DNA of 47,669 nt, from positions 1-47,669 of IMG/VR virus record IMGVR_UViG_3300025011_000075. The stretch is one strand, 5' to 3'. Below are positions 4,332 to 46,873 of the stretch, piece after piece. The notes under the pieces were generated by a model that worked only from the letters and a program-made list of their open reading frames with translations, had not been told where the DNA came from and did not search any database. A program made the position numbers and the translations under genes. Position 1 is the stretch's first letter, and each line of letters starts with the position of its first letter. Source of the stretch: a virus.

Positions 4332-5855
4332 TTATCTCCATTCTATATCTATAATTTCTTCGTTATTACCAATTCTTGTCCATAATATTTCTTTAATTAT
4401 TGATTTATAATATCTATTTTTTTCTTTAGAAGAAATATCTTTTTTATCTAAATTTTCTAATACTTTAGTAATAATATATATATCTTCTTCTTTATTTTTT
4501 ATTACACTGTTTTTCAACATTTGTTCATTTAACTCATTAATATCACTATTAACTTTTTCTATTTCATTTTCCCATTTACTCTTTCTTTCTATCCATTCAT
4601 CTCTAGTATAATCACCTAAATCATAAGCATCTTTAGCATTATTTAATGCTTTATTAAATTTTGCTAGTTGCTTATTTTTTTGTTTTATAATCAATTCTAT
4701 TTTACTACTATCATGGCTTGTTCCATTTTTAAGTTCTTTAAATAATCTTTCTTTTCTTTCAATAATTTTCAATTTAACAAACTTACTTACTTCTTCAACA
4801 CTTCCAGCACGATTAGGACACTTATTACCAAAATTGTCAACATACCAACAAGGTTTCATATATACTTTATCTGATTCTTTTCTGACAAAAAACGTCATCG
4901 AATGTTGACACAATGAACATTTTAGCAAACCTGAAAAATCAAATACACCCTGTTTTGCTCTTGGTGCAATTTGTTTTCTCTGTTTAAACAATTCTAATAT
5001 TCTATCATGCTCTTCTTGAGTTTTTACACAAGAATGACAATTTTCAACCACTATCCATTTATCTCTAGAATATTGTATTATTTTTTCACCTTTTTTACTA
5101 TTGCCTTTAGTTTTATTGCTAATTATCTTACCTAAATGAGTCTCACTAATAAGTATTCTTTGTATTACATTTGCATGCCATTTAGTTCCTCTGTCATAAA
5201 GTGTAGGGATACCTAATTTATTTAATTCATTTGCAATATTATCTACAGATAATAATTTATCAAGATATAAATATTTAATAAGGTTATATATAGGTAATTT
5301 TTCTTCATCTACAATTAAACCTTTAGTTTGAGGATTATATTTATATGGAATAGGTGCTGTACCATTGGTAAAATTGCCCATTTTACTTCCAATTTTCTTA
5401 CCACGAATTAACCTTTTTTTTATTAAGCGATACTCCTGCCTTGCTAAAAACGTCTGGAACTCCATATATGTTTCATCATCTTCATTTTCTAAATTATAAA
5501 TTTTATTAGGAGTAATAATTAATGTATCAGATTTTTTAAAAATACGTTTAATTTTCCCCGAATCTTCTTCTCCTCCACGTCCCAAACGATCTAGATCAAT
5601 TACTAAAACACCATCATATAATTCATTCTCAACGTCATCAAGCAATCTAATCATTTCAGGTCTATTATCAATACTATCACCTGAAACTACTTCTTGATAA
5701 ATTACATATCTAAAATCATGTTTCTTAGCAAAATCAACAAGAATTTCTTTGTGTTTATATAATGTTTCATCAGTTTCTTCTTCTTGATTTTTTGCTCTTG
5801 ATTTACGAAGATATATTGCTATATCCTTTATGATTTCTGATAATTTATTTTCCAT
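4332..5855 (-). CDS. Large serine recombinase/integrase
   Basis: A 507-residue large serine recombinase. The resolvase domain starts with YLRKSRA, whose Ser19 is the likely nucleophile, and continues with LDRLGRGG. The recombinase domain follows (about residues 165-290), then a zinc ribbon (CSLC near residue 310, paired with C..C of KPCWY and NKCPNR near 335-348), and a coiled coil from about 375 to 470. Length and order match phage integrases such as SprA of SPbeta. It should integrate and, with a directionality factor, excise the phage. ATG follows AAGGAG. It diverges from the DndB-like gene, and an 8-bp dyad lies upstream. A second recombinase (tyrosine type) is at 38591. Confidence 0.9.
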   Translation of the reverse strand: MENKLSEIIKDIAIYLRKSRAKNQEEETDETLYKHKEILVDFAKKHDFRYVIYQEVVSGDSIDNRPEMIRLLDDVENELYDGVLVIDLDRLGRGGEEDSGKIKRIFKKSDTLIITPNKIYNLENEDDETYMEFQTFLARQEYRLIKKRLIRGKKIGSKMGNFTNGTAPIPYKYNPQTKGLIVDEEKLPIYNLIKYLYLDKLLSVDNIANELNKLGIPTLYDRGTKWHANVIQRILISETHLGKIISNKTKGNSKKGEKIIQYSRDKWIVVENCHSCVKTQEEHDRILELFKQRKQIAPRAKQGVFDFSGLLKCSLCQHSMTFFVRKESDKVYMKPCWYVDNFGNKCPNRAGSVEEVSKFVKLKIIERKERLFKELKNGTSHDSSKIELIIKQKNKQLAKFNKALNNAKDAYDLGDYTRDEWIERKSKWENEIEKVNSDINELNEQMLKNSVIKNKEEDIYIITKVLENLDKKDISSKEKNRYYKSIIKEILWTRIGNNEEIIDIEWR

Positions 5856-7311: not shown

Positions 7312-9252
7312 TTAATCTTTTACAACAATAATCAAAGGATAACCTAAACTATTAATATTATATTGTTCTTTTATTTCTTTATTCGCTCTTATTCTTTTAT
7401 AACCTAATTTATCTAATTGCCCTCTCATTTTTCTTAATTGAATCTCAGTTATTTCCCATAAATATTCATTAGACAAATATAATATTAATTCTTTTTCTGT
7501 TGTATATCTTTTTCTATTAATTAAGATATTAATTGATTTAACAATATTATCAACTCTTTCATTACTTATCTTACTAGTTGTTCTATCTTTAATTACTTCT
7601 AAAATTTCACCAGTTTCATTATTAATTTCTTTGCCTTTAACTTTTTTATGTTGAGGATATATATTCTGAGCAACTTCTAATCCTTCGCCTCTATAAAACA
7701 TTTCATAAGATGCACCTTTAATTGTATAACCATTACTTTTCCATTTTACACCTTGTAATTCTACATTACTTAAATGTTCTAATATCCATGAAGGTATTGC
7801 ATAAAAATTAACTCTTTTAGGAAATTTATTATCAATAGAAATTGCTTGTGCTTTTTTAAGCATTAATTCTGGAATTTTGTCATCGTCTAATTTACGAACA
7901 AGATCATGATAAATTAATACAGATAGTCTTTGACTAATTCTATTAAGATGATTTAAAGATACATTCATTTGCTTTGCTAAATCAGTTAATGAAACAAAGA
8001 AAATAATATCACCATCTGAATTAGTATAATTTTCACCATATACATTATCTTTAGCAGTGTGAACCATTACAGAAAATAATTCTTTTACATATCTTATATT
8101 TTTATTTGTTTGAGGACATAATTCAGAAAATATATTCATATCTAATTTATAAATAATACCATCTAAATTTGCTTTTTGCTCAATACTCCATTCTGTTTCT
8201 TTTATAGATAAATTATAAATATCTTTTATAAATTTTATTGCTTTATATTCACTTTTATAATTACCTAATTTTTCAATTAATTGTTTATTATTTAATGTTA
8301 ATGATTTACCATTTGGCATTTTACATTTGCTATGACATTTATAAAGCCAAACTCCATCATCATTTTGAAAAACACTAGCAGAAGGATTATGATCATTATG
8401 AAATAAACATTTAAAAGATTTAGGATGTTTTAATTCTAACAATTCAATCATATTAATACGATAAATATAGTGCCAAAATTCTGCATCATTATCAAATTCA
8501 ATAGGAATATTATTTATTTTATCCTTCAAATATTTTACATCTCTATTTGATATTGCTTTTATATTATAATTTTCTTTACTAATTGAAGGAGTGGGAGTTT
8601 CCGAAGAAAGGGTGGACATAATATTAAGTGAATTATAATTATATTCAATACCATTTAATATATTATCCACCCTTTCTGAATCTTTCTTACTTTTATTGAC
8701 CTTTGAAGATACATTATCTAAATTAATAACCTTAGACAATTCTATAATATTATCTCTATTTAATACATTCCCACTATTAAATACAATATTTTTACCTGCG
8801 TAATAAAATCTATTGATATTTTTACATTGTTCATCTGAATATTCCATAATATTCATTAAATATAGTTGTATCTTTTTAGCAGTATCATATTCATCAACTT
8901 CTTTGTCTAAAATAAATACTAATCTAAATTTATGATGTTCTTCTGTATGAGAAAATGAAGTATAAATAAAATTAGGAATTATATTTACTTCCTTACATTT
9001 ATCTATTGCTTGATTAATTGTCAAATTATTATCAATATCTATCATAAACATTTGTTGAGATTTCCATGTTTCTTCTCTGCCTCCACAATATGAAGGTCTA
9101 ACTGTTTTGCCAATTAGAATACTCTCTTTAATTTCATCAATAGAATATTCTTTTGCTGTATTAAGTGTCATTCTTAAAGTTATTCCTCCACCACTTTTAC
9201 CTTGTGGTTTTGATAAAAATTCTTTAGTATCAATAATACATTTAATTTTCAT
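7312..9252 (-). CDS. AEP-type primase with CHC2-like zinc finger (first copy)
   Basis: A 646-residue replication protein. The N-terminal third looks like an archaeo-eukaryotic-type primase/polymerase: the acidic MIDIDNNL motif near residue 70, FRLVF near 105 and RFYYAGK near 147. A CHC2-like zinc motif follows (CLFHNDHNPSA near 282 and CHSKC near 305). The C-terminal part is probably a winged-helix region. It should prime DNA synthesis and perhaps recognise an origin. A clear paralogue with the same motif order lies at 42797-44614. ATG has an AAAGGAG site upstream. The preceding gene (9309-9503) ends 57 bases away across a terminator. Confidence 0.72.
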   Translation of the reverse strand: MKIKCIIDTKEFLSKPQGKSGGGITLRMTLNTAKEYSIDEIKESILIGKTVRPSYCGGREETWKSQQMFMIDIDNNLTINQAIDKCKEVNIIPNFIYTSFSHTEEHHKFRLVFILDKEVDEYDTAKKIQLYLMNIMEYSDEQCKNINRFYYAGKNIVFNSGNVLNRDNIIELSKVINLDNVSSKVNKSKKDSERVDNILNGIEYNYNSLNIMSTLSSETPTPSISKENYNIKAISNRDVKYLKDKINNIPIEFDNDAEFWHYIYRINMIELLELKHPKSFKCLFHNDHNPSASVFQNDDGVWLYKCHSKCKMPNGKSLTLNNKQLIEKLGNYKSEYKAIKFIKDIYNLSIKETEWSIEQKANLDGIIYKLDMNIFSELCPQTNKNIRYVKELFSVMVHTAKDNVYGENYTNSDGDIIFFVSLTDLAKQMNVSLNHLNRISQRLSVLIYHDLVRKLDDDKIPELMLKKAQAISIDNKFPKRVNFYAIPSWILEHLSNVELQGVKWKSNGYTIKGASYEMFYRGEGLEVAQNIYPQHKKVKGKEINNETGEILEVIKDRTTSKISNERVDNIVKSINILINRKRYTTEKELILYLSNEYLWEITEIQLRKMRGQLDKLGYKRIRANKEIKEQYNINSLGYPLIIVVKD

Positions 9253-30984: not shown

Positions 30985-33900
30985 CTATTTACCCATTCTT
31001 TTCAAACCACTAACAATTTCAGTAAATACCATATTAGCATCTTTTCTTGTTCCATTTAAATTATCTATATTCAATGTTAAATTATAATTAACATTCCCTG
31101 CACCAGCAACTTGTGGTTGTAAATTAAAACTAGGAGTAATACTAGATATAAAATTCTGCATATTAGGCATAAAATTTTTCATCACATTATTTTCTGGAAT
31201 AGCAAGTTCTCCTTTAAGCATTTTAACAACACTTTCGTTAGATTTAGTATTAAATAATTTATTTACTATATCCATTATTTTAGAAGGTTTGCTATTTGAA
31301 ATAAAACCTCCTTCATGATATACTTGTGTTTTATACCAATCATATGCAGTATCATAATCCATTGAATGTAATAAATTTTTTGTATTATCATCATCTATTT
31401 GATTATAATAACCTTCTGCTGCTTTTGCTGCCCATGCCATTTTTGTTTGATCTCCAGATTCACTACCTTTTTCCCATTCACCTTTCAAATAAACTATTTC
31501 GTTAATTTGAGATTTCCAAGGATAATACTGACTATGTACAGTTGAATTATCACTACCAGAATCATTGCTACCATTTCCACTACTACTAGAATCACCTATA
31601 CTAACACCATTTGCATCGTTAAAACTTTTTATCATTGATAAAGCATTACTAACTTGATTTATAAAATTAGTTTGAATATTATCTCCTAAAGATTTAAACT
31701 TAGAACCTGCAGTAGATTGAAATTTAGTTAATTCATTCTGAATATTAGTAAAATTACCTTTAATAATATCTTCTCTAATTTTTGAAAACTTCTGTTCATC
31801 ATTAATTAGATTGTCATAATATTTTTCAGTAATATCCTTTTGGTCATCCAAACTATCTTTTACAGTATCATACTTATCATCTTCTGCATCTTTTTTTGCT
31901 TCATTATCTTTCTTATAAGCATCTAATTGATCATTAAGATTATCTTTTCTTAATTCTCTGGAACGATCTGTTTGTAATTTTTCAATTTCCTCTTGTTTTG
32001 CTGTTAATTCTTTTTGTAAATCAAATCTTTTAGCATTTGCTTCATATGAATCATCTAATGATAATTTATTTATTTGTTTTTGGATGTCAGATTCTTCTTT
32101 TTGTAGTTTATTTAAATTTTGAGTATAATCTTCTTGATTTTCTTGGTCATTTAATAAGTCTAATTTTTCATTAATAAAATCTTCATATTGCTTCATTTCT
32201 GATTCAATATTTTTAGTTGCTTGATCATGTCTTTTATCTTCTGCATCCATTTGTTTATCAATAGCATCTAAAGCATAATCTTTTTGTTTCTCATACATAT
32301 CTTTATAAATTGATATAATATCATCTGCTAAAGACATTTTTTTGTCGTATAGTGCTTTATTAAGGTCTAATTCAGCAGAAGTTACTTCTTGAAGTTTTTG
32401 CTTTAATTCCTCATAAGCAACAGTCCCTTTTTCTACAAGCATTAATTGTGCTTCAAGATAAGTGCGTTTATTTTGTAATATTATTTGTTCTTGTTTATGA
32501 GATATAACAACTTCTTTAAATTTATCATTATATTCAGTAGTACCATTTTCTAACATTGATAATTCTTTTTCTAGGTTAGAAGTATTATTATTTAAATCAG
32601 ATATAGTATTATCGAATTCTGTTAATTGAGAATTAATTTTTTCAAAATTAGTATCATTAATTTCTTTTTGCAAATTCCACCAAGCTGTAGAATATTTTTC
32701 AACTCTATCTTGTAATTCTTTTAATGCTCTTTGATTATCTTTATAAACAGGAGAATTCATTGCCAACCTTGCCAATTCTGCTGCTTCATGTAGTTTATCT
32801 TGTTCTTCTTTTAATGAATCAGTTTCTAAATCTAAATTATCACGATATTCTTGTGATACTGGACTTAAAGTATTTGATTTTTCTTTTATAAAATTACGTT
32901 TATCTTGTATATCTTGCATATCAGCATCATATTTAATCCAATGTGCTTCCCACCATTGGAGAGAATTTTTTTCTCTATCTTCTGCTAATTTTTGTTGCTC
33001 TGCAATCATATCATTTGTTAGAGCATCTTGTGCGTTTTGTACATCAGTTGATGAAGAGGTAGATACTGTTACAGGAGATAGACCATAATTTTTATAACTG
33101 TTTATAACTTTATTATAATACTCTTCTGTTCCTTCACCATATCCTTTAATACCTTCTTTTAAATTACCTGCTTGTTTTACACGTTTAATTAAATATGCCA
33201 CACCAGCATTAATATTTGTTTCTGGATCAAATACATCTCCACCTTTACCTTCTTCTCTCCATGTTGAAGGTAAAAATTGCATAAGACCACTAGCACCAGA
33301 ACTTGCATTTTTTGCTTTTGGATTAAAACCAGATTCAATATTTATCATTCCAGCAATTAAAGCGGGAGTTATTCCTAATTTTTCAGCATCAATATTATTT
33401 ATTACTGCTTTATTTATTAAGTCTGCAAATTTAACATCTGATGATACACCATTAATATTTACTGTTGTAGGAGTGGTAGTATTATATTTACCCCATTGTG
33501 AAGTATCAAAATTATTTCCTCCACCATACATCTTATAAAATTGTTCCCTTGTCATTTTGCCAGAAACAATATCTTGATATTCAGAAGTTTCAATATGCCA
33601 AGGTTCATTTACTTTTCCAGTTAATCTTCTAACTAAACCATATTTAGATAAAATTTCATTAGTAATTTTACCATTTGCTATTAAATCTTTTATTGCACCT
33701 GAAATATCTACTGCTTGACCTGTATGATGAGGACTACTACCAGGATGTGCTATATAACCACCATTTGACCCACCACGACTAGTCCATATTGCTTGTTGTT
33801 CAGCTAATGAACGATAACCAGAAGTTATATTAATTTTAGTATTATAATCTTTTGCTAATGCACCTAATCTTTCAAGTATCATAGGATTAACATTAGTTTT

Positions 33901-36900
33901 CCCTGTTAAATAGTTTTGATAATCAGAAGTAGATTTATATGAATTAGATGAATTAGATGATACACCAGATGTTGTATAAGTAGGTTGACTACCAATTTGA
34001 TTTTTTAATAATTTTTCTCTTTCTCTTATTTTTTCATTTTCTTCTTCTAATGATTTAAGATATTCTTTTGAGCCTATAATCATTTTTTCTCTATCATTGC
34101 GAAGTCTATTGAGAGTGTTATTAAGAGAATCTACTGAGTTTTTGTATGTTTTTGTTGCGTCTGTGAGATCATCTAATGCTTCTTTGTTCTTTTCATTTTC
34201 TTTAGTATTATCACTTGTAGATTGTGTTAAATCTGGCAAAGAACTATTTAAACTGTCATCAATACTTGCTATACTATCATATAATTCTTTTAATTTTTTA
34301 TCTTCTTCTTTATATTTTTTATTTAATGCATTTATTTTAGTAGAATTAGGACTTCTTATTCCTGCTAACAATATATCTAAATCACTGGAATATGGTGTAT
34401 CTTTTCCTTGTGATCTATCTAAAGTATTTTGTGTTTGTGCTTCAGATAACCATTTTTGATCTATTTTTGCATTGTTTAATGAATATAATATTGCAATTTC
34501 TCCACCAAGAGATTTTATTACTCCTAAACTTGTTTTAACTTGATCTTGTAATTTTATTTTATTATTTATTAATTGTTGTTTTGTGGCACTCTCATTTTCA
34601 TCTGCTAATTCTTTTTGTTCTTTTGCTTCTTTCTTCATTGCTTCAATAACTTTATTAGATATAGTTATTGTATCGCCTTTTACATCTATTAAATGTGGAT
34701 AACTTTGAGTTAATATTGCAGTTATATCATTTAATTTTCTCTGCTCTTCTGCTGTTAAATTACTTTTATTACTTAATTCTGTATAAGTATCAATTAATTT
34801 AACATTATTATCAGCAACTTTTGTTTGATTATTAGCTTGATCTATTAATGTTTTTTGATATTCTGTGGAATTATCTTTTGCGATACCTAAAGTTTCTGAT
34901 AATATATTTTGCTTTTCATTTATTGCTTCTAATACTTCATTTACTGTATGATATTGTGTAATATTTATTCCCATTTGTACTGCTAAATCTTTTAATTCTT
35001 TAGATAAATATTTTACAGATGTTGATTGAAATCCAAAAGTCCCAGATTTATGTTCTTGGTCTATTTCTTCAATCTTACCTTTTAATTCACCTAATTTTTT
35101 AATTGTAGCATCAATATCATTAACATCTTGTAACTCTGGACTACCTACTTTATTCGATCTTTCAATAATATCATCTAATTTTTGTTTTGTTTCTTCATAA
35201 GTTTTATTTAGCTGTTCTTGCTCTTCTCTTACTTGTTTAAAATGCCCTAACACCATAGGAATAGCTGTTAAAGCAAATAATACCCATGTTAAAGGATTTT
35301 TTAGCATTGCTTTAGAAAAAGCTAATAAACTTACAGTAGCAGTTTTTATAGTTGTACTAAGTGTAGCATATGATATTGCTAATTTTTGATTTATTGGGAT
35401 AGCAGTTGTTGCAATTCCATTTCTTATAGCAAAATCTTTAATCTCTGTTTTTATTGCAGGTAATAATTTAAGTAAAATTACACTTCCTAAAATAATAATA
35501 GAATTTACTAATAAACCATTAAATTTAGTCATTTCAGTTAACCCATTAATATATTGCGAAGCAACACTTAAAACAGAACTCATTGCTTTTTTTACGCCTG
35601 ATTCTCCCATTGTATAAGCCAATTCTTGAAATGCTGCTTTGTTGCGATTTATTTGACTTTCTAAAGAATGTAAATGTTTATAATTTTCTTCAATTGCAGA
35701 TCCTAATGATGTTTGTGCTGTAGAAGTAGCATCTAAAGATATTTGAAAATTGTCGAATAATGCCATAAGTCTCGTTATATGATGTTTCCCTGCTAAACTT
35801 TCTGCAATATATGTTTTTTCTGCTCTAGTCATAGAATCCCATTTATTAGCAACTTCACCATATATTTGACCTAATGGCAATAACTCACCAGTAATATCTT
35901 TAACTGCTATACCCATAGAAGCAAGTGCTTCTTGTGCTTTATCTGTATTTATTCTAGCAAATGAAAATTTTAACATATTTCCAATTTGGTTTCCAGATTC
36001 TCGCGTGGCAGTACCGATACTTGTCGTAAAACCAATTAATTCGTCGAGTGTTACACCAAATTGTTGTGCAGATTCTCCAGCCTTATTTATACTTTGTGCT
36101 AGACCTATACTCGTAATTGCAAAATTATTATCAACTTCGTTTAATTTGTCGATAATTGTCGAACTTTTTTCAGCTTCAACATTAAACTGTGCTAAAATTC
36201 CGGTAAGATACGATGCCATCTGTCCAGTTTCTAATCCGGTTACATTAGATCCAAGCATACTAGTACGTGCTAATGCTACTGATTGTTCTGCGTTATATCC
36301 TTGTTTAGCGAATTCTATTTCGGCATCTAATGCTTGTGTTATAGATTTTGCCATCATATTAGCAGATTCAGCAGTATCACGCATCAATTTAACCCAATTA
36401 GTATTATTATCTAAAACTTTACTTAATTCTGTTAATTTAGTATCAACATCTATAATTTCTCTTCCTATTTGCTGGATGCTATTGGCAACTGAGTAAAATA
36501 TTCCCGTAGCTCCCGCCCAAAGACTTATCTTCTCAAAAGCCGTCTTAAATGCAGAACCTAAATCCCATGTTCTTGTCATTAAATCTCTTATAGACTCACT
36601 AAATTTATGTGTTTCACCAGTTAATTTATTGACATAAGCAGTTACACTTGTTATTTTAGAACCTTCTCTTAATCTTTGTGTTACTTTTATGTATTTTTCT
36701 GTTTCTTGTATATTGGCCTCTAATAATTTCTTCCCATGCATTAAACTATTATTATAATATTCATGTGCATGAGTAACATTACGAACAGCATTCTCCATTT
36801 TAGGATACTGTTGAAAATTAAAACCTTGCGAATCTTTACTAGCAATCCTAGTTTGATCATATACTCTTTTAATTGCATTTTCTAATCTCTGTAATCTTTC

Positions 36901-38397
36901 TATATCTTTATCAGAAACTATTTGACCAGATATATTTTTTTGTTGCATATTGCTTATTAATGTTTTATATCTTAATAATGCTTTTTCTAATGGTGCAAAT
37001 TGTTCAGGAGATAAATTATTAAACTTAACACCTAGATTTAAAGCATTTTGTGATTTTGTGTTAAGTTGTTTATTTATTCTTTCTTGATTAGCAATAAATT
37101 TTTGTTGTTCTTGTTCTCTTAATTTCATTCCTCTTAAAAATTCAGCGTTTTCTTGATCTATTAATTTAATACTTGTTTGATGTGCTTTTAATTTTTGTTC
37201 TGCTGTTTGTCTTAGAGATTTAATGTAATTTTGCTCATTCTTTTCTCTTTGACTTTGTTCTTGTTGCATTTGTTTTACAGAATCTTGAATTTGTTTTTGT
37301 TTTAATTTTTGTGCATCTTGTTCTAATTTCTCACGAAGTCTTATTCCACGCAAAAATTCCTTATTTTCTGCATCAAAATCTTTACCTTGTATTTTATTAC
37401 TATTAACATAACCTTTTAATTTTTCTTCTTTTTCTTTTCTTAATAATTTAATACTATCTTGCAATAATTTTTCTTTATCTTTTTGTTCTTGTTTTAATTG
37501 CTTAACTCTTATATTTGCTTCTTTATAAAAATCTTTAGATTCTTTTGCCAGTATTTTTTGTTGTGTTAAATGTGCATCGAGTTTTTGTTTTGCGGTTTGT
37601 CTTAATAATTTTATATAATCGTTTTCATTTTTTATTCTTTCTTTTTGTTCTAATTGTAATTGCTTAACTGCTTCATTTATATTTATTTGTTTTATTTTTT
37701 TAGCATCTGCTTCTGCTTTCTGTTGTACTTTATAATATTTTTGATGATAATCATTAGATTCTTTCGCTAACTTAGCAGATTCCCTTGCTAATTTCATCTG
37801 TTCTTTTAATGCATCTGCATTTTTCTTAACACCATAGTCATTGTCTGATCTATATACATTATCTTGTCCTGGTTTTGAAGTGACAGTAGTTTTAATGCCA
37901 GTTTGAGAATTTAAATATGTTTGATCTTGTCTTAATGTATCTCCATTAGCTTTCTTTAATTTAATGGTTCTAATTAAATTTCCATATTCATTATTTAATT
38001 TTTTAATTGCTTCTGTTTCTTTGCTAATACTATTCGATACCTGTGCATTTTGCTGTTTTGCAATTTTATTTTTATCTATTATTTCCGTAGTTTTCTGTAT
38101 TATTTCACCATTTGCTTTTATTGTTTCAGAATATTTTTTTACACTTCCATCTAATTCCTTTGTTATCTGTGTGTATTGAGTGGAAGATTTATTAGCTTGT
38201 TGTGTTACTACATTCATACTTTCCATTACTTTTGAAATATTATTAATTGTAGAAATTATTTTATCATCTATCTTTATCTCAATATTTAATTTGCTCAAAT
38301 TTTTAACTAAATTTTCTACTTCAGTTTTTAGATTAGTAACACTAGTAGATTGTAGTATTGTCTTGATCATGATAGAGAGATCGTTGTTATTTGGCAT
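30985..38397 (-). CDS. Tape measure protein with M15 peptidase and lytic transglycosylase domains
   Basis: A 2470-residue tape measure protein. Residues ~30-480 are coiled coil with degenerate repeats (KEFLRGIRLREKLEQDA, AEFLRGMKLREQEQQ). The conserved TMP core spans about 670-900 (ASYLTGILAQFN, ESGNQIGNMLKF). Hydrophobic segments follow near 960-1050 (VNSIIILGSVILLKLL; PLTWVLFALTAIPMVL). A D,D-carboxypeptidase-type M15 domain lies at about 1490-1610 (SPHHTGQAVDIS, EPWHIE) and a lytic transglycosylase at about 1650-1770 (NIESGFNP, SSGASGLMQFLPSTW). The rest is coiled coil. It sets tail length and should cut peptidoglycan during DNA entry; at about 1.5 angstrom per residue (family rule) the tail would be several hundred nm. 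ATG behind AAAGGAG. Confidence 0.92.
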   Translation of the reverse strand: MPNNNDLSIMIKTILQSTSVTNLKTEVENLVKNLSKLNIEIKIDDKIISTINNISKVMESMNVVTQQANKSSTQYTQITKELDGSVKKYSETIKANGEIIQKTTEIIDKNKIAKQQNAQVSNSISKETEAIKKLNNEYGNLIRTIKLKKANGDTLRQDQTYLNSQTGIKTTVTSKPGQDNVYRSDNDYGVKKNADALKEQMKLARESAKLAKESNDYHQKYYKVQQKAEADAKKIKQININEAVKQLQLEQKERIKNENDYIKLLRQTAKQKLDAHLTQQKILAKESKDFYKEANIRVKQLKQEQKDKEKLLQDSIKLLRKEKEEKLKGYVNSNKIQGKDFDAENKEFLRGIRLREKLEQDAQKLKQKQIQDSVKQMQQEQSQREKNEQNYIKSLRQTAEQKLKAHQTSIKLIDQENAEFLRGMKLREQEQQKFIANQERINKQLNTKSQNALNLGVKFNNLSPEQFAPLEKALLRYKTLISNMQQKNISGQIVSDKDIERLQRLENAIKRVYDQTRIASKDSQGFNFQQYPKMENAVRNVTHAHEYYNNSLMHGKKLLEANIQETEKYIKVTQRLREGSKITSVTAYVNKLTGETHKFSESIRDLMTRTWDLGSAFKTAFEKISLWAGATGIFYSVANSIQQIGREIIDVDTKLTELSKVLDNNTNWVKLMRDTAESANMMAKSITQALDAEIEFAKQGYNAEQSVALARTSMLGSNVTGLETGQMASYLTGILAQFNVEAEKSSTIIDKLNEVDNNFAITSIGLAQSINKAGESAQQFGVTLDELIGFTTSIGTATRESGNQIGNMLKFSFARINTDKAQEALASMGIAVKDITGELLPLGQIYGEVANKWDSMTRAEKTYIAESLAGKHHITRLMALFDNFQISLDATSTAQTSLGSAIEENYKHLHSLESQINRNKAAFQELAYTMGESGVKKAMSSVLSVASQYINGLTEMTKFNGLLVNSIIILGSVILLKLLPAIKTEIKDFAIRNGIATTAIPINQKLAISYATLSTTIKTATVSLLAFSKAMLKNPLTWVLFALTAIPMVLGHFKQVREEQEQLNKTYEETKQKLDDIIERSNKVGSPELQDVNDIDATIKKLGELKGKIEEIDQEHKSGTFGFQSTSVKYLSKELKDLAVQMGINITQYHTVNEVLEAINEKQNILSETLGIAKDNSTEYQKTLIDQANNQTKVADNNVKLIDTYTELSNKSNLTAEEQRKLNDITAILTQSYPHLIDVKGDTITISNKVIEAMKKEAKEQKELADENESATKQQLINNKIKLQDQVKTSLGVIKSLGGEIAILYSLNNAKIDQKWLSEAQTQNTLDRSQGKDTPYSSDLDILLAGIRSPNSTKINALNKKYKEEDKKLKELYDSIASIDDSLNSSLPDLTQSTSDNTKENEKNKEALDDLTDATKTYKNSVDSLNNTLNRLRNDREKMIIGSKEYLKSLEEENEKIREREKLLKNQIGSQPTYTTSGVSSNSSNSYKSTSDYQNYLTGKTNVNPMILERLGALAKDYNTKINITSGYRSLAEQQAIWTSRGGSNGGYIAHPGSSPHHTGQAVDISGAIKDLIANGKITNEILSKYGLVRRLTGKVNEPWHIETSEYQDIVSGKMTREQFYKMYGGGNNFDTSQWGKYNTTTPTTVNINGVSSDVKFADLINKAVINNIDAEKLGITPALIAGMINIESGFNPKAKNASSGASGLMQFLPSTWREEGKGGDVFDPETNINAGVAYLIKRVKQAGNLKEGIKGYGEGTEEYYNKVINSYKNYGLSPVTVSTSSSTDVQNAQDALTNDMIAEQQKLAEDREKNSLQWWEAHWIKYDADMQDIQDKRNFIKEKSNTLSPVSQEYRDNLDLETDSLKEEQDKLHEAAELARLAMNSPVYKDNQRALKELQDRVEKYSTAWWNLQKEINDTNFEKINSQLTEFDNTISDLNNNTSNLEKELSMLENGTTEYNDKFKEVVISHKQEQIILQNKRTYLEAQLMLVEKGTVAYEELKQKLQEVTSAELDLNKALYDKKMSLADDIISIYKDMYEKQKDYALDAIDKQMDAEDKRHDQATKNIESEMKQYEDFINEKLDLLNDQENQEDYTQNLNKLQKEESDIQKQINKLSLDDSYEANAKRFDLQKELTAKQEEIEKLQTDRSRELRKDNLNDQLDAYKKDNEAKKDAEDDKYDTVKDSLDDQKDITEKYYDNLINDEQKFSKIREDIIKGNFTNIQNELTKFQSTAGSKFKSLGDNIQTNFINQVSNALSMIKSFNDANGVSIGDSSSSGNGSNDSGSDNSTVHSQYYPWKSQINEIVYLKGEWEKGSESGDQTKMAWAAKAAEGYYNQIDDDNTKNLLHSMDYDTAYDWYKTQVYHEGGFISNSKPSKIMDIVNKLFNTKSNESVVKMLKGELAIPENNVMKNFMPNMQNFISSITPSFNLQPQVAGAGNVNYNLTLNIDNLNGTRKDANMVFTEIVSGLKRMGK

Positions 38398-38590: not shown

Positions 38591-39619
38591 TTACAAATCA
38601 CCTAATGATTTATTTTCAACTTGTTTAATTCCAGAAGAATCAAAATATTTACCTAATTCATCATCAACTTCTTGGTCATTATATATTGATATCATCGAGG
38701 TAGACTGCCATCCAATCACATCCTTAATTACATCTGCTGGAATATTTGCTTTACATAAATCCGTACAAAATTTGTGACGGGCTGAATGAAAGTAATAGAA
38801 GATACCAAGTATGTTAGAGAATGTATTTGCCCAAGAATTAAGTAATGAAATATCTCCTGGTTTCCAAACACCATTTCTTTTATTCCAAAATAATTCTTCT
38901 CCTTGAATACCTAATTCTTCACGTTGTTTCATCCATAAATCAAAATATGGTTTAAATTTACTAACCAAAACGTAACGATAGAGCATCTTACCCCTAGAAC
39001 TACGTCCTTTAGTTTTGATCTTTTCAGGTGTTTTATATAAAGCACCATATTTAATATTTTCATCAGTAAAAAAACTTACTTTAAATCTCAATAATTCTTG
39101 TTTTCTTGAACCACTTGCAACAGCCAAAGCTAATGCACATGCTTGTTGATATTTTTCTTTTTTAACTAAATAATCTAATAAATAATCAACTTGTTCATCA
39201 CTTAATACTGTTTTATCTCTAACTTCTTGCTTTGGTGGAGCAGGGATTTTATTTACTATATTACGATATCCTTCATAAACGTCATCTAGTATTGATTCTA
39301 TGTAGTTTGACATACTACTAATAGCAGCTTTTAATCTTCTAACTCTATTAGAACTTAGATTTTGAGTATTGACAAGCCAATTTTGATATTTAAGAATGTC
39401 TCTTTTATTAAAATCAACATAAAATTTATTCTTATTATATTGTAAATTCCAAACTAAACAAATTTCAATATCATTGCAGTATCCTTTTATACTACCAGAT
39501 GCCATGTCTTTACCTCTACAGTAATCCAAAAATTCATTCATTAATTCCTTATTTTCATTTGAAACTTGTTCCCATAATTCAGGTGTAACTATACTATGTT
39601 GTTCTGTTTTTCTACCCAT
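38591..39619 (-). CDS. Tyrosine recombinase/integrase
   Basis: A 342-residue tyrosine recombinase. The SAM-like core-binding domain lies at about 20-125 (CRGKDMASGSIKGYCNDIEI) and the catalytic domain from about 135. Catalytic residues: Arg in ASGSRKQELLRF (~169), Lys in TKGRSSRGK (~203), His-x-x-Arg in HSARHKF (~278), Trp in IGWQS (in place of the second His, as in some relatives) and Tyr in SMISIYND (~312). All parts appear present. Its ATG shares a base with the stop of the preceding repeat nuclease (TAATG), so the two are translationally coupled. It may resolve multimers or integrate a second element, since a serine integrase is also present. Confidence 0.88.
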   Translation of the reverse strand: MGRKTEQHSIVTPELWEQVSNENKELMNEFLDYCRGKDMASGSIKGYCNDIEICLVWNLQYNKNKFYVDFNKRDILKYQNWLVNTQNLSSNRVRRLKAAISSMSNYIESILDDVYEGYRNIVNKIPAPPKQEVRDKTVLSDEQVDYLLDYLVKKEKYQQACALALAVASGSRKQELLRFKVSFFTDENIKYGALYKTPEKIKTKGRSSRGKMLYRYVLVSKFKPYFDLWMKQREELGIQGEELFWNKRNGVWKPGDISLLNSWANTFSNILGIFYYFHSARHKFCTDLCKANIPADVIKDVIGWQSTSMISIYNDQEVDDELGKYFDSSGIKQVENKSLGDL

Positions 39620-41394
39620 TAAGACACATCCTTTAAATTATTATTTATATTATCAATCTTATTTAACAACAAATTATACAATGTTTCTATATCACTTTTC
39701 TTAAAGTCATTTTTATATAAATCAATCAAAATTAAATTATTATCTTCACATAATTTAATTTTATAATCTGCTTTATCACTATACCATTTATGCTCCATCA
39801 TACCGAATATTTCTATAAAATAATCAATATTATTTATATTAACAATGTAATCAAATCTAAATCTTCTAGTAAAATCTTTTATGTATTTTGAATAATGATC
39901 TTCTTGTCTAAAACTTAATCCTTTATTTTCTAACATTATACAAAAATCAAATTCATATGATGATCTACAATAATTGCCTTGTGGAGTAATACTACATTTA
40001 CTGTTTTGTTTTCCATTTATAATACCAGAAATTTTCAATGATTCAATAAATCCACCAAATTCTATATTATAACTAGAACTAGATGCCATCCATTCACACA
40101 TATTAACATCTTTTTGAGTAGGAATTCTACCTAATCTTTCATATAATTCTTGCAAATCTTCTATTAAATCACTCCTTGATTTATGTCTTCCAATTACAGT
40201 AGGTATAAAATCACAATAAACTTGAAGTTGATAAACACTTCCAAAATGAAATTCATATGCACCCATTGAATAAAATTCTTCTTTATTTCTAGAATAATAC
40301 TCAATATCTCTACTATGTGGTGTTCTACCTAATATTGAATATAATTCTTTATATTTTTTAATCATATCTAATTTTATAGCATGATTATTATGTTTATAAT
40401 AATCTACATTTATTTGACTATATAATTCTTGAATACTATAAAATTTTTTAAATAAAACTGATTGACTTGGAATATCACATAAAATAAATAATTCTTTCAT
40501 TCCAGGTAATATATCTTTTTCTGTATAATTATTATAAATAAATTCTTTTAAATTTTTTAATATAATATCCGTATCCATACTTTCTCTATTATATAACCAT
40601 TCTTTATCTTGCGGAATTTCAATATTGGCAATTAATAATGCATTCTCAAAACTACCAAATCTTTCTCTATAAATATAATCACTTGGATAATCATTATTAT
40701 TTTTTAAATCTCTAGTAGTTGGTAATCCATATTTATCATAGTAATCTTGTAGATAAATTATTAATTCTTCATTTGATTTATTTTTAAATTTAGAAAAATA
40801 TTTACTTTCTATATCTTCTGGTATATGTATATTTAACATATTTAAGATTTCTTTATATGTTCCAAATCTATTTCTATATACAACCATACTATATAAACCA
40901 TATTCTTTAAATTTAGAAATTGGAATAATACCATGTGTTGTTAAAACTTGTTTAAGTTGTTCTAATAAAATATCATCTTCTAAATATACTTTATTATTTT
41001 TTAAACTATTTTCTTTATTTTTAGGTATTGGGATATTTGCTTTAATTATTGCATCTTTAAAACTTCCAAATCTAATACGATATACTTCTGCATTTGGCAT
41101 ATCTTCATCTTTATTAATTTCTTTTTTAATAGGGAAACCATTTTTATCATAAAAGTTTTTAAGTTTATCTAATAATTCATTATCAGTAAAATATATATGA
41201 TTTAATTTTAAACCACATACCTCATCAAGTTTTGTTTTACCACCAAATCTACTAAACAAAACTTTACCACTTGGAAAATATTTGTTACTTTTTGATTCAT
41301 TGTTTACATCATCTTGTGTTGGAGTTTTACCTAATCTACTTGCAAAATCTTTATACTTTTCAATTATCTCTTCATCTGTATACTTTATTGCCAT
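39619..41394 (-). CDS. Modular repeat DNA-binding nuclease (HNH_repeat-like array + PD-ExK/Vsr-like domain)
   Basis: A 591-residue protein made of seven repeats of about 65 residues. Each has the pattern (ELLxxLxxxYxxxG..P...) then (Y..RFGSFxxAL), as in the homing-endonuclease-associated repeat. The C-terminal ~120 residues are a nuclease-like domain (SSYEFDFCIMLENKG, RFRFDYIV, YFIEIFG). Repeats 2, 3 and 4 are closest to consensus (RIRFGSF, RNRFGTY, RERFGSF); 1, 5, 6 and 7 are more diverged. I infer a modular DNA reader that guides cleavage. It is coupled by TAATG to the tyrosine recombinase. ATG 41394 behind AAAGGAG. Confidence 0.75.
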   Translation of the reverse strand: MAIKYTDEEIIEKYKDFASRLGKTPTQDDVNNESKSNKYFPSGKVLFSRFGGKTKLDEVCGLKLNHIYFTDNELLDKLKNFYDKNGFPIKKEINKDEDMPNAEVYRIRFGSFKDAIIKANIPIPKNKENSLKNNKVYLEDDILLEQLKQVLTTHGIIPISKFKEYGLYSMVVYRNRFGTYKEILNMLNIHIPEDIESKYFSKFKNKSNEELIIYLQDYYDKYGLPTTRDLKNNNDYPSDYIYRERFGSFENALLIANIEIPQDKEWLYNRESMDTDIILKNLKEFIYNNYTEKDILPGMKELFILCDIPSQSVLFKKFYSIQELYSQINVDYYKHNNHAIKLDMIKKYKELYSILGRTPHSRDIEYYSRNKEEFYSMGAYEFHFGSVYQLQVYCDFIPTVIGRHKSRSDLIEDLQELYERLGRIPTQKDVNMCEWMASSSSYNIEFGGFIESLKISGIINGKQNSKCSITPQGNYCRSSYEFDFCIMLENKGLSFRQEDHYSKYIKDFTRRFRFDYIVNINNIDYFIEIFGMMEHKWYSDKADYKIKLCEDNNLILIDLYKNDFKKSDIETLYNLLLNKIDNINNNLKDVS

Positions 41395-41442
41395 CAAAAC
41401 ATCTCCTTTAATATTTTATTTTGTTTCCTTATCCATCTCATC

Positions 41443-41470
41443 CTTATAAAAAGAGTGATAAAACAGTCAA
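41443..41470 (-). promoter_or_regulatory. Promoter for the repeat nuclease-recombinase pair
   Basis: TTGACT (41470-41465), 16-base spacer, TATAAG (41448-41443) on the minus strand, about 45 bases before the ATG. The -35 overlaps the closing arm of the structured element at 41460-41513. Confidence 0.55.
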
Positions 41471-41513
41471 TAGTTAAGGATTACTACTTTCGGGAGCGAC
41501 CCTAGACTGTTTT
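41460..41513 (-). terminator. Three-way-junction hairpin (terminator-like) ahead of the repeat nuclease
   Basis: An outer stem AAAACAGTC (41460-41468) / GACTGTTTT (41505-41513) encloses two short hairpins, TAGT/ACTA and GGG/CCC. On the minus strand it ends in TTTT. It is one of several such nested structures in this genome. Confidence 0.55.
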
Positions 41514-41845: not shown

Positions 41846-42175
41846 CTACTCAACAACATCTTTCTTCTTCCTTGTTTTCTTAATCTTCTCCGCAATCTCA
41901 ATACCTACAACTGCATCTTTCCATTTCTTACCTAACTTTACTTTTACTACGTTTTTAGGAGCAATTTCAATTTCAGTCATATCTTGCGGATTATGACCTT
42001 TCCTACCTTTCCTTAAAGTTGGAGTAAGAATTATGTAGTTATTTAATTTTACTTCTTCTCCATTACTTAATGCTTTCTCAACACTTAGTAAAAATGCATC
42101 TAATGCTTGTTCTGCTAACTTTTTAGTCATTTCCCCTAATTCGGACATACTTGTGATCATTTCTTCTCTTTTCAT
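41846..42175 (-). CDS. HU/IHF-family DNA-bending protein
   Basis: A 109-residue HU-like protein. The helical N-terminus is followed by the beta-arm region with the family signature (LTPTLRKGRKGHNPQDMTEI, then VVKVKLGKKWKDAV) and a basic tail (KKTRKKKDVVE). It bends DNA and may assist the adjacent recombinase or replication. ATG behind AAAAGGAG. It lies between a head-tail-type gene and the recombinase/nuclease pair, separated from the latter by 450 bases containing iterons and terminators. Confidence 0.85.
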   Translation of the reverse strand: MKREEMITSMSELGEMTKKLAEQALDAFLLSVEKALSNGEEVKLNNYIILTPTLRKGRKGHNPQDMTEIEIAPKNVVKVKLGKKWKDAVVGIEIAEKIKKTRKKKDVVE

Positions 42176-42357: not shown

Positions 42358-42795
42358 CTATTTTACATTTAATCCTTCCCTGATAAGACCACGTTTTAAT
42401 GCATCTCTAGCCTTGCCTTTTCTTAATTCTTCTGCTGTTGCTTTTATAAACGGTCTTTCACCAATAAGTTCATCCAACCACTCAGTATAATAACCTTTTC
42501 CTGTCTCCACGATGGGAGTTACTAATCTTCCCGATTCTTCATCTTTTCTAATATTTTCTATTCTCAAAGTAGTATCATCAATCATTTTTGTTTCTATATT
42601 TTTTTCATCTGCTAAACCTCCATCATCATAAGACCTTGAATATTGAGTAGGTGTATATTGAGAATAAACTACACTATCTAATTTATCTACCATAATATCT
42701 TTACTCGTTTCTGATACTTCCTTTTTTAATGAGGATTGTATTTTCTTTTTTATCTGTGCTTCAATATTTTTTAATTGGTCTGCTAAAGAGGCGAT
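42358..42795 (-). CDS. HK97-gp10-like head-tail/tail component, apparent ATC start
   Basis: A 145-residue protein: (M)ASLADQLKNIEAQIKKKIQ at the N-terminus, a charged middle and a C-terminal GERPFIKATAEEL motif as in HK97 gp10-type tail completion proteins. The frame is open upstream, but the upstream ATG codons lie inside the previous gene and have no RBS. The perfect AAAGGAGGTG (end of the primase gene) points to ATC 42795, eight bases downstream and one base after the preceding stop. I infer an ATC start. The neighbouring genes are replication and recombination genes, so this is a scattered morphogenesis gene. Confidence 0.6.
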   Translation of the reverse strand: MASLADQLKNIEAQIKKKIQSSLKKEVSETSKDIMVDKLDSVVYSQYTPTQYSRSYDDGGLADEKNIETKMIDDTTLRIENIRKDEESGRLVTPIVETGKGYYTEWLDELIGERPFIKATAEELRKGKARDALKRGLIREGLNVK

Positions 42796-42796
42796 T

Positions 42797-44614
42797 TTAT
42801 TCACCTCCTTTAACAATAATCTTAGGATAACTTCTTTCTGCAACATCAATATTATATTTCAACTTTATTTCTTTATTGGCAGTTATTTTAATTAATCCAT
42901 AGCCATCCAATATTTCTTGAATACTACGTTTCCATTGTGTTTCTGTTATATTATCAATTTTTAATTCTTTTTCTAAAACATAACCTTTTTTCTCTATTTC
43001 ATCTAAAATATAAGATGCTATTTTACTACTATTTTCATTAGATTTTTCAGAAGTGCCTAATTCATTCTCATAAATATATTGAGGATATATTTTATTTGTT
43101 AATTCTTTACCAAATGTTCTTAATAAATATTCCCTAGAAATACCTTTTAAAGATATATTGTTATCTTTTAATGTTTTAGCAATTTTATTGCTTTCTTCTA
43201 AAGAATCCACTCCATATTGATCAATACTATAAAAATTAACTAATTTAGTAAGACCATATTTTGCTGCAATATGTTTTGCTTTGTTAAAAGTTTCTTCAGG
43301 TAATTTCTCATGTGGTATTTTATTTAATAAACTTAATAAAGCAAATAATGTAATACTCTGTGATACTTTAGTTCTATCTTTTGAACCAAAAATATCCATA
43401 ATTTTAGTCAGAGAAGCAAAAAATAATGGATTTTCATCTACACAAAAATCTTCATCTTTAATATTAATTTTTGCATAGTTATTTAATGCAATAAGATTAT
43501 TTTTTCTTGTTCTTATTAAAGAATGGAGTTGAGGATATATTTCTTTAAATTCATCAGATAATAATAATTCAATATTTATATCAAGTATTTCTAATTGTTG
43601 TTTTTGCCATTCTGTTTGTTGTAATTCGATATTATATACTTTTTTTATAAATTCAATTGCTTTAATTCTTTTACATTTTGCTAGTTTTTCTACTAAAGAT
43701 ATTATTGTATATTTCGCATCGCAACCAAAACATTTATATATTTGTGTTCCACTATCAGTTGTATAAATATGTGCCGAAGGAGTATCATCTTGATGATCAG
43801 GTAATATACAATTTACCATACTATGTATATTTGTAAATTCACATAAATCTATTCCATTAATAAAATCATAAACTTCTTGTTTATTTACACAAATAACTTT
43901 ATCACCATTTATTTGAAGAAGATGTTTCATTAAAATTACATCTAAATTTTTTATTGCATTAAAATGGGAAAACTCCTCGTAAACCCTTACAGGACGGGGA
44001 TTCTGAGCTTTCTGCATACTAATAGAAGAAGAGTTTATTGTATTAGTATTGATTAACCTCAAAGTAGATGAATCAACTATACTTTTTAATATATCTTTAA
44101 ATTTAATCATAATATTATTAATATTTATTCTATTATTATAATCACAATTAATTAATTCTTTTCCACCAAAGAATAACCTTGTAGGATCAAATGTTACAGA
44201 GTCACTAGTAGGAAATAATGCAATTAATAATTTTTGAAATTTATTTCTTGTTTCTACATTAGTTATTACTATATTACTACAAAATACTAATCTAAATTTC
44301 TCTTTATATTGAGTATAAGAAAATGTTTTATATCCAAAAATAGGCAATATATTTAATTCTCTACAATTATTTAATTCTTTTTCAATAGTAGTACCACCAT
44401 CAAAATCTAAAGCAAATAATTGTTGAGTAAGCCAATCTATACTTTTTCTACCATTGAGTAATGCAGGTTTAAAAGTTGCTCCATTACTTAATAAATTAGC
44501 TAATTCTTCAATTTCAATTTCTGTTTGTGCCATTCTAAATTGGATACCTTTAGATTGATCTCCACTTGGTTTGTTTTCAAAAGTTTTTCTGTCAACCATA
44601 CATTTCACTAACAT
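42797..44614 (-). CDS. AEP-type primase with CHC2-like zinc finger (second copy)
   Basis: A 605-residue paralogue of the 7312-9252 protein. The same motifs appear in order: ALDFDGG near residue 70, FRLVF near 107, RLFFGGK near 148, a zinc motif CILPDHQDDTPSA near 266 and CFGCD near 294, then a C-terminal winged-helix-like region. The first residues also match (VKCMVDRKTFENKP versus IKCIIDTKEFLSKP), supporting ATG 44614 rather than the upstream ATG 44635. It probably primes replication or acts as an initiator. The leader carries three stem-loops (44693-44812). Its end overlaps the RBS of the gp10-like gene. Confidence 0.7.
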   Translation of the reverse strand: MLVKCMVDRKTFENKPSGDQSKGIQFRMAQTEIEIEELANLLSNGATFKPALLNGRKSIDWLTQQLFALDFDGGTTIEKELNNCRELNILPIFGYKTFSYTQYKEKFRLVFCSNIVITNVETRNKFQKLLIALFPTSDSVTFDPTRLFFGGKELINCDYNNRININNIMIKFKDILKSIVDSSTLRLINTNTINSSSISMQKAQNPRPVRVYEEFSHFNAIKNLDVILMKHLLQINGDKVICVNKQEVYDFINGIDLCEFTNIHSMVNCILPDHQDDTPSAHIYTTDSGTQIYKCFGCDAKYTIISLVEKLAKCKRIKAIEFIKKVYNIELQQTEWQKQQLEILDINIELLLSDEFKEIYPQLHSLIRTRKNNLIALNNYAKINIKDEDFCVDENPLFFASLTKIMDIFGSKDRTKVSQSITLFALLSLLNKIPHEKLPEETFNKAKHIAAKYGLTKLVNFYSIDQYGVDSLEESNKIAKTLKDNNISLKGISREYLLRTFGKELTNKIYPQYIYENELGTSEKSNENSSKIASYILDEIEKKGYVLEKELKIDNITETQWKRSIQEILDGYGLIKITANKEIKLKYNIDVAERSYPKIIVKGGE

Positions 44615-44692
44615 TTCATACCACGTCCTTTTCATTTTATTTTAAATCACTAACATTCATCCTTTTTTATTTTGTTTTATAAAATATAAAAA

Positions 44693-45810: not shown

Positions 45811-46769
45811 CTAACTTGCTTTATTATTGTTTTTATTATTTTTAAATTCCCATTCAGTAATTTTATATTTAAATTCTTTTTCCAATTTTATATATAGTTT
45901 TTCTTCAATAATTACTAAATTATCATATTCTTTAGGATAATATTTCTTAAATTTTTCTAATCTTTTAATATCTACTTCTTTCATCCAACCTTTCACTTCT
46001 ATCCAAACATTTAATTTTGGAAGATAAAAATCTGGTAAGTAACTTTCTATTCCATTACTTTATCATCAAATTCAAATCTTTTTGGTTCAAATTCCCATAT
46101 AATATTTGAATAATTAAAAATACGTGCTATATTAGCCTCCCATTTACTTCTAAAATATTTATCCAAATCTTTCCTATAACCACCAGTTTTTGAATATTTT
46201 GATTTGACTATATTTTTAGATATTTCTCTTCCTTTTCTTAAATTAATATAAATTTTTTCTTTTTGTTCTTGTGTTTTATTTTGCCATGCTAATTTATATT
46301 TTTCAGATAATATTTGCTTTGTTTCATATGTATGTTTTTTACCTAACATTCCTTTAGGATGATTTGTTTTTACTAATTTAATAAATTGATTAACTGTACG
46401 AATATGATTTTGTTTTTTAATCTCTTTTCTTTCATTAATAATATCTTCTGTTAATACTTTTCTATTTACATTTGTTATATTAAGTCTTTTTGCTTTGCGA
46501 CAAATCTCATGTTTGTCTCTATTCATAATTGTAGATAATTCATCTAATTTTAATTCATTAGGATGTTCTTTATACCAGTTTATTATAATAATTATTTCCT
46601 CTTCTGAAAAAACATTTCTTTTACCACTTTTTAAATTCATTCTTAACTTTTTACTTCTTATCATATTTTCTGTTCTAGATAATTCCTTTGCTAATTCAAA
46701 AACACTTAAAATACTAACATTTTCTATTAAAAATTGTTCTTCTTCTTTAGACCATTTGCCATTTTTCAT
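45811..46769 (-). pseudogene. Homing endonuclease (NUMOD3 + PD-ExK) broken by a frameshift
   Basis: Frame 1 (46769-46047, 240 aa) has two SANT/Myb-like DNA-binding units (WSKEEEQFLIENV; FSEEEIIIIINWYKE), a NUMOD3 motif (NHPKGMLGKKHTYETK), and the start of a nuclease domain (FRSKWEANIARIFN, IIWEFEPKRFEF), then ends ...DDKVME and TAG. From there a second frame continues with SYLPDFYLPKLNVWIEVKG and on to 45811, supplying the PD-(x)n-ExK active site. One insertion or deletion near 46050 separates the DNA-binding part from catalysis. It is either a decayed homing gene or a programmed shift; no slippery heptamer is obvious. ATG behind TAGGAGG. Confidence 0.75.
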
Positions 46770-46818
46770 TATTTATTACCTCCTATAGTATATTTTCTTT
46801 TCCTAAATAAAAAATAAA

Positions 46819-46873
46819 TCAGAGGAAGTAGTCTAGGAAAACTACTTGTCATGTTGCAATCACTATCCTCTGA
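46819..46873 (-). terminator. Nested hairpin terminator after the RusA-like gene
   Basis: Outer stem TCAGAGGA (46819-46826) / TCCTCTGA (46866-46873) encloses AGTAGT/ACTACT (46827-46832, 46841-46846). On the minus strand it is followed by TTTATTTTTTATTT. Same nested style as the elements at 41460 and 44693. Confidence 0.6.

Follow-up and report, generated by a model that had tools for sequence, protein, structure and literature searches.

Does a repeat nuclease that is encoded directly in front of a phage tyrosine recombinase work together with it, or is it a separate gene lodged at this position? The question is raised by a virus fragment from IMG/VR, whose whole stretch of 47,669 nt was analysed here and is called the window. 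It encodes a repeat nuclease (REP) followed by a tyrosine recombinase (REC), and the original prediction held that the start of REC overlaps the stop of REP, that this translational coupling implies a joint role, and that the repeats of REP could read DNA.

The locus and the predicted nuclease

Transcription on the minus strand runs from a tail protein gene through an HU gene, a leader RNA, REP and REC to a tape-measure-like gene, which places REC between the tail protein and the tape-measure-like gene (Table 1). The predicted overlap was confirmed and consists of one base shared by the TAA of REP and the ATG of REC (TAATG), and the HU gene was found close by, as had been stated. A TTG stands one codon upstream of the REP ATG. 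The structured leader RNA lies within the region of the original prediction (38591-41513), whose text did not include it. A large serine integrase is encoded at 4332-5855 (phrog_95), which makes REC the second recombinase of this phage; SPbeta, which has a serine integrase, is a parallel case of a phage with both a serine integrase and a tyrosine recombinase. The window also contains two phrog_25531 genes (42797-44635 and 7312-9252; 612 and 646 aa), which are possible primase-like paralogues, and the product of the former has a DnaG-type zinc ribbon.

Table 1 Coordinates of features in and around the REP/REC region of the window
Feature	Position	Strand	Basis or remark
Second leader RNA copy	46798-46873	-	R2 65.4 bits, E 8.8e-11
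240-aa protein behind second RNA copy	46047-46769	-	Myb-like, PHROG 'D5-like', weak Holliday-junction-resolvase match
Tail protein	42358-42849	-	5' flank of HU/REP/REC region
HU-like DNA-binding protein	41846-42175	-	Neighbour; HU also beside the L156 pair
Leader RNA of REP	41439-41512	-	Three-way junction and pseudoknot, int-alpA-like
REP, 591-aa repeat nuclease	39619-41394	-	ORF from ATG
REP repeat array	40018-41382	-	Own HMM, PF18780, AF2 helices
REP repeat unit 1	about 41382-41203	-	Strong
REP repeat unit 2	about 41190-41026	-	Strong
REP repeat unit 3	about 40983-40822	-	Strong
REP repeat unit 4	about 40779-40615	-	Strong
REP repeat unit 5	about 40575-40402	-	Degenerate
REP repeat unit 6	about 40377-40201	-	Strong
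REP repeat unit 7	about 40182-40018	-	Strong
REP C-terminal nuclease domain, residues 464-591	39622-40005	-	PD-(D/E)XK/Vsr-type fold in predicted model
Shine-Dalgarno-like sequence of REC (AAAGGATG)	39626-39636	-	Within REP 3' end; homologous position in relatives
REC, tyrosine recombinase, 342 aa	38591-39619	-	Pfam, PHROG integrase, tblastn
Tape-measure-like protein	30985-38397	-	Gene 3' of REC

The seven homing-associated repeats that had been read from the sequence were found again as six clear PF18780 units and one degenerate unit. Pfam matched the 'Homing endonuclease associated repeat' (PF18780) in 6 stretches (E 4.6e-50), and our repeat HMM found 7 units, of which units 1-4, 6 and 7 were strong and unit 5 (residues 275-332) was degenerate. 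The AlphaFold model, in which the relative placement of the units is uncertain (mean pLDDT 80, pTM 0.36), has seven four-helix units followed by a C-terminal alpha/beta domain. With VIA-align, this domain was aligned to I-Bth0305I (PDB 3R3P; Z 9.6, 95/97 residues, rmsd 3.0, 8% sequence identity), Vsr 1CW0 (Z 8.9) and FASTK RAP (Z 10.5); middling Z values of this kind are common, and weight was placed on the agreement of several Vsr-type nucleases. Foldseek gave weak E-values, yet the matches were consistently PD-(D/E)XK nucleases. In the predicted model the C-terminal domain has a Vsr/EDxHD-type nuclease fold, which bears out the nuclease domain of the original prediction, and E481, D515, E528, G531 and D563 were invariant in nine relatives (alignment A5). 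An HNH identity was rejected, since no HNH catalytic family matched at E<=1 and the C-terminal fold is PD-(D/E)XK/Vsr-like. The search for sequence relatives of REP among solved structures gave a single match only, with E 0.9.

REP thus combines a nuclease fold with separate DNA-binding modules and is intergenic, outside any intron or intein; no group I intron was found in the window with Rfam at gathering. The repeats and the predicted fold fit a candidate modular DNA-reading nuclease, in agreement with the proposed DNA-reading array. I-Bth0305I is likewise phage-encoded, with an EDxHD, Vsr-fold domain to which that of REP aligns, but it is intron-encoded, whereas REP is free-standing and has seven PF18780 repeats and a leader RNA. 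In the two groups of cellular genomes that were searched, PF18780 was rare (2/86 and 5/391 genomes). Several of the loci read were fusions to HNH or small single-repeat ORFs, and no recombinase was seen beside these genes in the short stretches read.

The leader RNA and its copies in other phages

The 74 nt leader of REP matched Rfam int-alpA (RF02996) over its full length (model positions 1-71) with 35.4 bits (E 1.1e-5), just below the gathering threshold of 35.8. The other REP leaders were also below the RF02996 threshold, and no Rfam family matched at gathering in the whole window, by which a group I intron or known riboswitch upstream of REP was rejected. The leader is therefore int-alpA-like and not a formal member of RF02996. 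Its P1 encloses two hairpins, and the loop AUCCUUA forms a pseudoknot with UAAGGAU 3' of the junction; topology and conserved positions (UAG, CGA-AAG, CCU loop, downstream AGG) are those of int-alpA.

Copies of the leader were searched with RNA models R1 and then R2 and aligned on the model (A8). They were found before REP in L006, L088, L090 and L089 and before other nucleases in L008 and L003 (L numbers denote loci). Among 11 copies, 93.7% of cells were paired and 11/16 pairs had changed on both sides, and the covariation score was 0.693 compared with 0.248±0.033 after shuffling and no more than 0.145 in slid controls, the last of which matter most in an alignment that is small and fitted to the structure. 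The pseudoknot between the CCU loop and the AGG strand just 5' of the ribosome-binding site was present in 10/11 copies, in which the letters differ yet still match. The second copy in the window has the pseudoknot UUUCCUAG/UUAGGAAA and lies 28 nt upstream of the gene for a 240-aa protein, which is probably a truncated homing-type nuclease.

We then scanned viral DNA with two exact core patterns, which gave 59 and 116 stretches; for the second pattern, the first 80 loci from its 116 stretches were examined. R2 matched at E <= 0.05 in 55 cases for the first pattern and in at least 59 among the first 80 loci for the second, with matches near E 0.01 being the least certain. The copies in L116, L108, L153 and L112 pass the RF02996 gathering threshold (36.8-43.3 bits). 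Among the matches listed, a pseudoknot of at least 5 bp was found in 91/125 copies, where about 30 would be expected by shuffling, and the ORF started a median of 17.5 nt after the RNA. Strong copies (R2 >=40 bits) were grouped by similar downstream genes, and about 30 of the 38 groups among the matches listed precede homing-type nucleases, which include HNH (phrog_374 among them), NUMOD4-HNH, NUMOD3, GIY-YIG, endonuclease-I-like and repeat nucleases; this count is descriptive, because it was made by hand, with the help of motif reading, once the copies were known, and the seeds were nuclease leaders. The other 8 groups precede AntA, KilA-N, DnaD-like, methyltransferase, helicase or unknown genes. 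The genes upstream of the RNA were ordinary phage genes, with HNH in 3/66 of the matches listed.

Several single loci are worth recording here. The same RNA with homologous flanks occurs at L089:5691-5760, before a primase-like gene, and at L090:8888-8958, before a GIY-YIG nuclease gene, and the homology ends at the ORF start. At L092:2691-4338, four group I intron matches in a row (56-85 bits) interrupt an apparent tape-measure gene. L009:3559-3645 has a RAGATH-27 RNA match of 53.1 bits (gathering 76.1) about 320 bp upstream of a truncated REP.

The int-alpA motif was reportedly described by Weinberg et al. in 2017, and it was named after an integrase-alpA context, whereas the copies examined here mostly lead homing-type nuclease genes. 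We found no literature linking PF18780 or int-alpA with homing endonucleases in a search that did not include the original int-alpA description, and the novelty of the link between the RNA and homing nucleases is only as good as this search.

Phage T4 offers the closest comparison. It has twelve free-standing homing nucleases, whose cut sites lie hundreds to thousands of bp away and which cause co-conversion and marker exclusion; their leaders contain hairpins that sequester the ribosome-binding site, several T4 ORFs have upstream RNA structure, and SegA adjoins uvsX (PMC2988022). Like SegA-G and MobA-E, REP is intergenic, stands beside a conserved phage gene and is patchily distributed. The T4 genes differ in their GIY-YIG or HNH catalytic domains and in their proven activity, and the REP leader has a pseudoknotted three-way junction instead of their simple hairpins. 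Because a strand of its pseudoknot is placed shortly before the ribosome-binding site, the leader would most likely control translation of the nuclease, by analogy with the T4 homing endonuclease hairpins.

Recombinases beside repeat nucleases

REC contains Phage_integrase (PF00589, E 2.1e-14) and Phage_int_SAM_4 (PF13495, E 6.9e-10) and keeps the catalytic R..HxxR..W..Y pattern (HSARH/GW/Y), with R172, H278 and Y313 invariant in recombinase alignment A1. Its relatives by tblastn to phages, SPbeta YomM and Geobacillus virus E3 GP28, are 27-32% identical and the same kind of phage tyrosine recombinase, and REC is thus a YomM / E3 GP28-like, widespread phage core gene. E3 GP28 differs from REC in that its listed adjoining genes are not repeat nucleases. 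A 61% relative of REC (L085) was found on a contig binned into a bacterial MAG of a group with very small genomes, and this is possibly a mis-binned phage contig.

Viral contigs contained 371 relatives of REC, and the loci of the best 80 were fetched. REP was absent from most of the 86 loci examined around REC relatives, and screening with REP and the repeat HMM found repeat-nuclease genes in a handful only. The relatives often lie between a tail protein and a tape-measure gene and carry their own Shine-Dalgarno-like sequences, and their upstream neighbour varies: many phages have a metallophosphatase-like gene (about 400 aa) there, others a RuvC-like gene, a DUF1064 gene or nothing coupled. 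As the recombinase is mostly without REP and has a variable upstream neighbour, REC does not need REP, and it probably does its own job with or without it.

From the nuclease side the picture is different. REP-type queries gave 12 distinct loci, and in 10 of them (L006, L009, L088, L089, L090, L156, L285, L008, L048 and L289) a tyrosine recombinase is the next gene on the same strand, directly 3' of the query match; these counts were based on ORF calls and alignments and not on annotation. Further pairs are those of the window and of L002/L003, the latter found from the recombinase side. The exceptions are E3, where 2.2 kb separate the recombinase from a REP relative downstream of it, and L092/L093, which have no neighbouring recombinase. 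The paired recombinases form five groups (window/L003/L006/L008/L048; L009/L090; L088/L089; L156/L285; L289/E3), with 39-99% identity within and 16-39% between groups. The neighbourhood therefore recurs with unrelated recombinases, which chance does not explain. So the co-occurrence suggested as a check on the original prediction was found on the nuclease side, but not around most REC relatives, and a dedicated partnership of REP with a YomM-like recombinase was rejected because of the REC-only relatives and of REP beside four other recombinase groups.

The recurrent 5' adjacency across five recombinase groups is what a functional pair would predict. In such a pair, the co-transcribed recombinase would act at long DNA sites that REP has bound and cut (or marked), and the two might serve, for instance, to resolve or re-circularise the phage genome or to integrate it. 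The start/stop overlaps in the window, L156, L285 and L088 also speak for such a pair, as does the lack of a recombinase beside the cellular PF18780 genes looked at, by which the link would be special to these phages. Yet relatives do not keep the overlap as such (their junctions vary between a 4-base overlap and a gap of 36 bp, with the one-base overlap of the window recurring in L156 and L285), a recombinase without REP is the rule, the exceptions above separate the two genes, and five unrelated recombinases with one kind of specific partner are hard to explain. We consider a functional pair unlikely.

GIY-YIG, zinc-finger PD-(D/E)XK and DUF1064 nuclease genes also crowd both sides of REC, which would fit a tolerated, often exchanged spot where any nuclease cassettes gather without specific target or function. 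A published survey of exchange boundaries supports this thought, having found homing nucleases with repetitive DNA-binding modules near essential genes and at the edges of exchanged blocks (PMC10448857). That survey centres on T5orf172 and IPA-HNH nucleases, unlike the Vsr-type REP, and we found neither Vsr/EDxHD nucleases nor RNA structure mentioned in it. A merely tolerated spot is decidedly doubtful, however, since repeat nucleases stand specifically directly 5' of REC and since the L088, L089 and L090 pairs show this placement next to different recombinases and elsewhere in the genome.

Separate exchange and the origin of the neighbourhood

Alignments of the paired loci showed that REP and REC exchange separately. 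L006 and L088 are 83% identical over a block that opens 19 bp before the RNA and closes 7 bp short of the REP stop, beyond which the recombinases are unrelated, and L088 and L090 are 87% identical from the first RNA bases to 29 bp into the recombinase. Conversely, L088 and L089 agree at 87% in the final 376 bp of REP and throughout the recombinase, and the rest of REP differs, while L006 and L008 have the same left and right flanks and 97% identical recombinases with different nuclease ORFs exactly between. Near-identical REP genes thus precede unrelated recombinases, the same recombinase follows different REP genes, and the common block runs from the start of the leader RNA to about the REP stop codon. 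Judged from these alignments, the pattern is the behaviour of homing-type genes exchanging at one site, and it stands, together with the usual absence of the nuclease, against the joint role that had been drawn from the coupling. A simple selfish gene had been the stated alternative, with the recombinase alone in relatives and the repeat gene at random places; recombinases alone were found, but random placement of the repeat gene was not.

Decay was seen as well. REP of L009 is N-terminally truncated, and a second repeat nuclease gene downstream of the recombinase (L006:10748-11575) is split by one in-frame stop codon, as is typical of homing genes. Such copies, together with the patchy presence (REC occurs with and without a repeat nuclease, and the nuclease ORF is swapped between the homologous flanks of L006 and L008), make it very improbable that REP is a domesticated nuclease-derived regulator or exclusion factor kept to block rivals, even though long intact ORFs with conserved acidic residues occur and marker exclusion by T4 homing nucleases is established (PMC2988022).

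The explanation we favour, and hold to be fairly likely, makes REP a free-standing homing-type nuclease cassette that carries a leader RNA and is lodged at the edge of a recombinase gene; this cassette is most likely selfish and not part of the machinery of the recombinase. It would consist of the structured, pseudoknotted leader RNA and one nuclease ORF travelling together. We infer that a long DNA target is read by the helical repeats, and that in a co-infecting phage without the cassette the Vsr/EDxHD-type domain cuts the equivalent locus. Repair from the REP-bearing genome would then copy the cassette and flanking DNA across, so that neighbouring markers would be converted or excluded. The cassette would occupy the 5' border of a core tyrosine recombinase gene that retains a ribosome-binding site of its own.

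Several findings count against this cassette. REP-type genes stand beside five recombinase groups with almost no common DNA, and near-identical REPs before unrelated recombinases are not easily accounted for by one DNA target within the recombinase gene; the repeated company of tyrosine recombinases is explained only in part. Some genes behind the leader RNA are not nucleases (AntA, KilA-N, DnaD-like, helicase). A homing target at the very start of REC was rejected, since conservation of the DNA there does not exceed that of the remaining gene (pairwise identity 0.56 in the 24 nt that follow the start codon, mean 0.56), and no REP target was found at the REP/REC junction from the conservation of REC 5' DNA. 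Because the REC start is not unusually conserved and no target was found, the functional pair stays a live rival. Leader RNA, repeat nuclease and tyrosine recombinase could also form a three-part mobile module, in which the array picks the opening site and a docked recombinase completes the exchange. We regard this as quite unlikely; if true, it would account for the nuclease being found before five unrelated recombinase groups.

The REP-type nuclease beside phage recombinases is thus a candidate for a nuclease that reads DNA module by module, and it comes with natural loci on which targets can be tried. An RNA resembling the uncharacterised int-alpA motif mostly precedes homing-type nuclease genes of unrelated families, and if it controls their translation, it would be a control element common to selfish genes of phages, and one by which they could be found.
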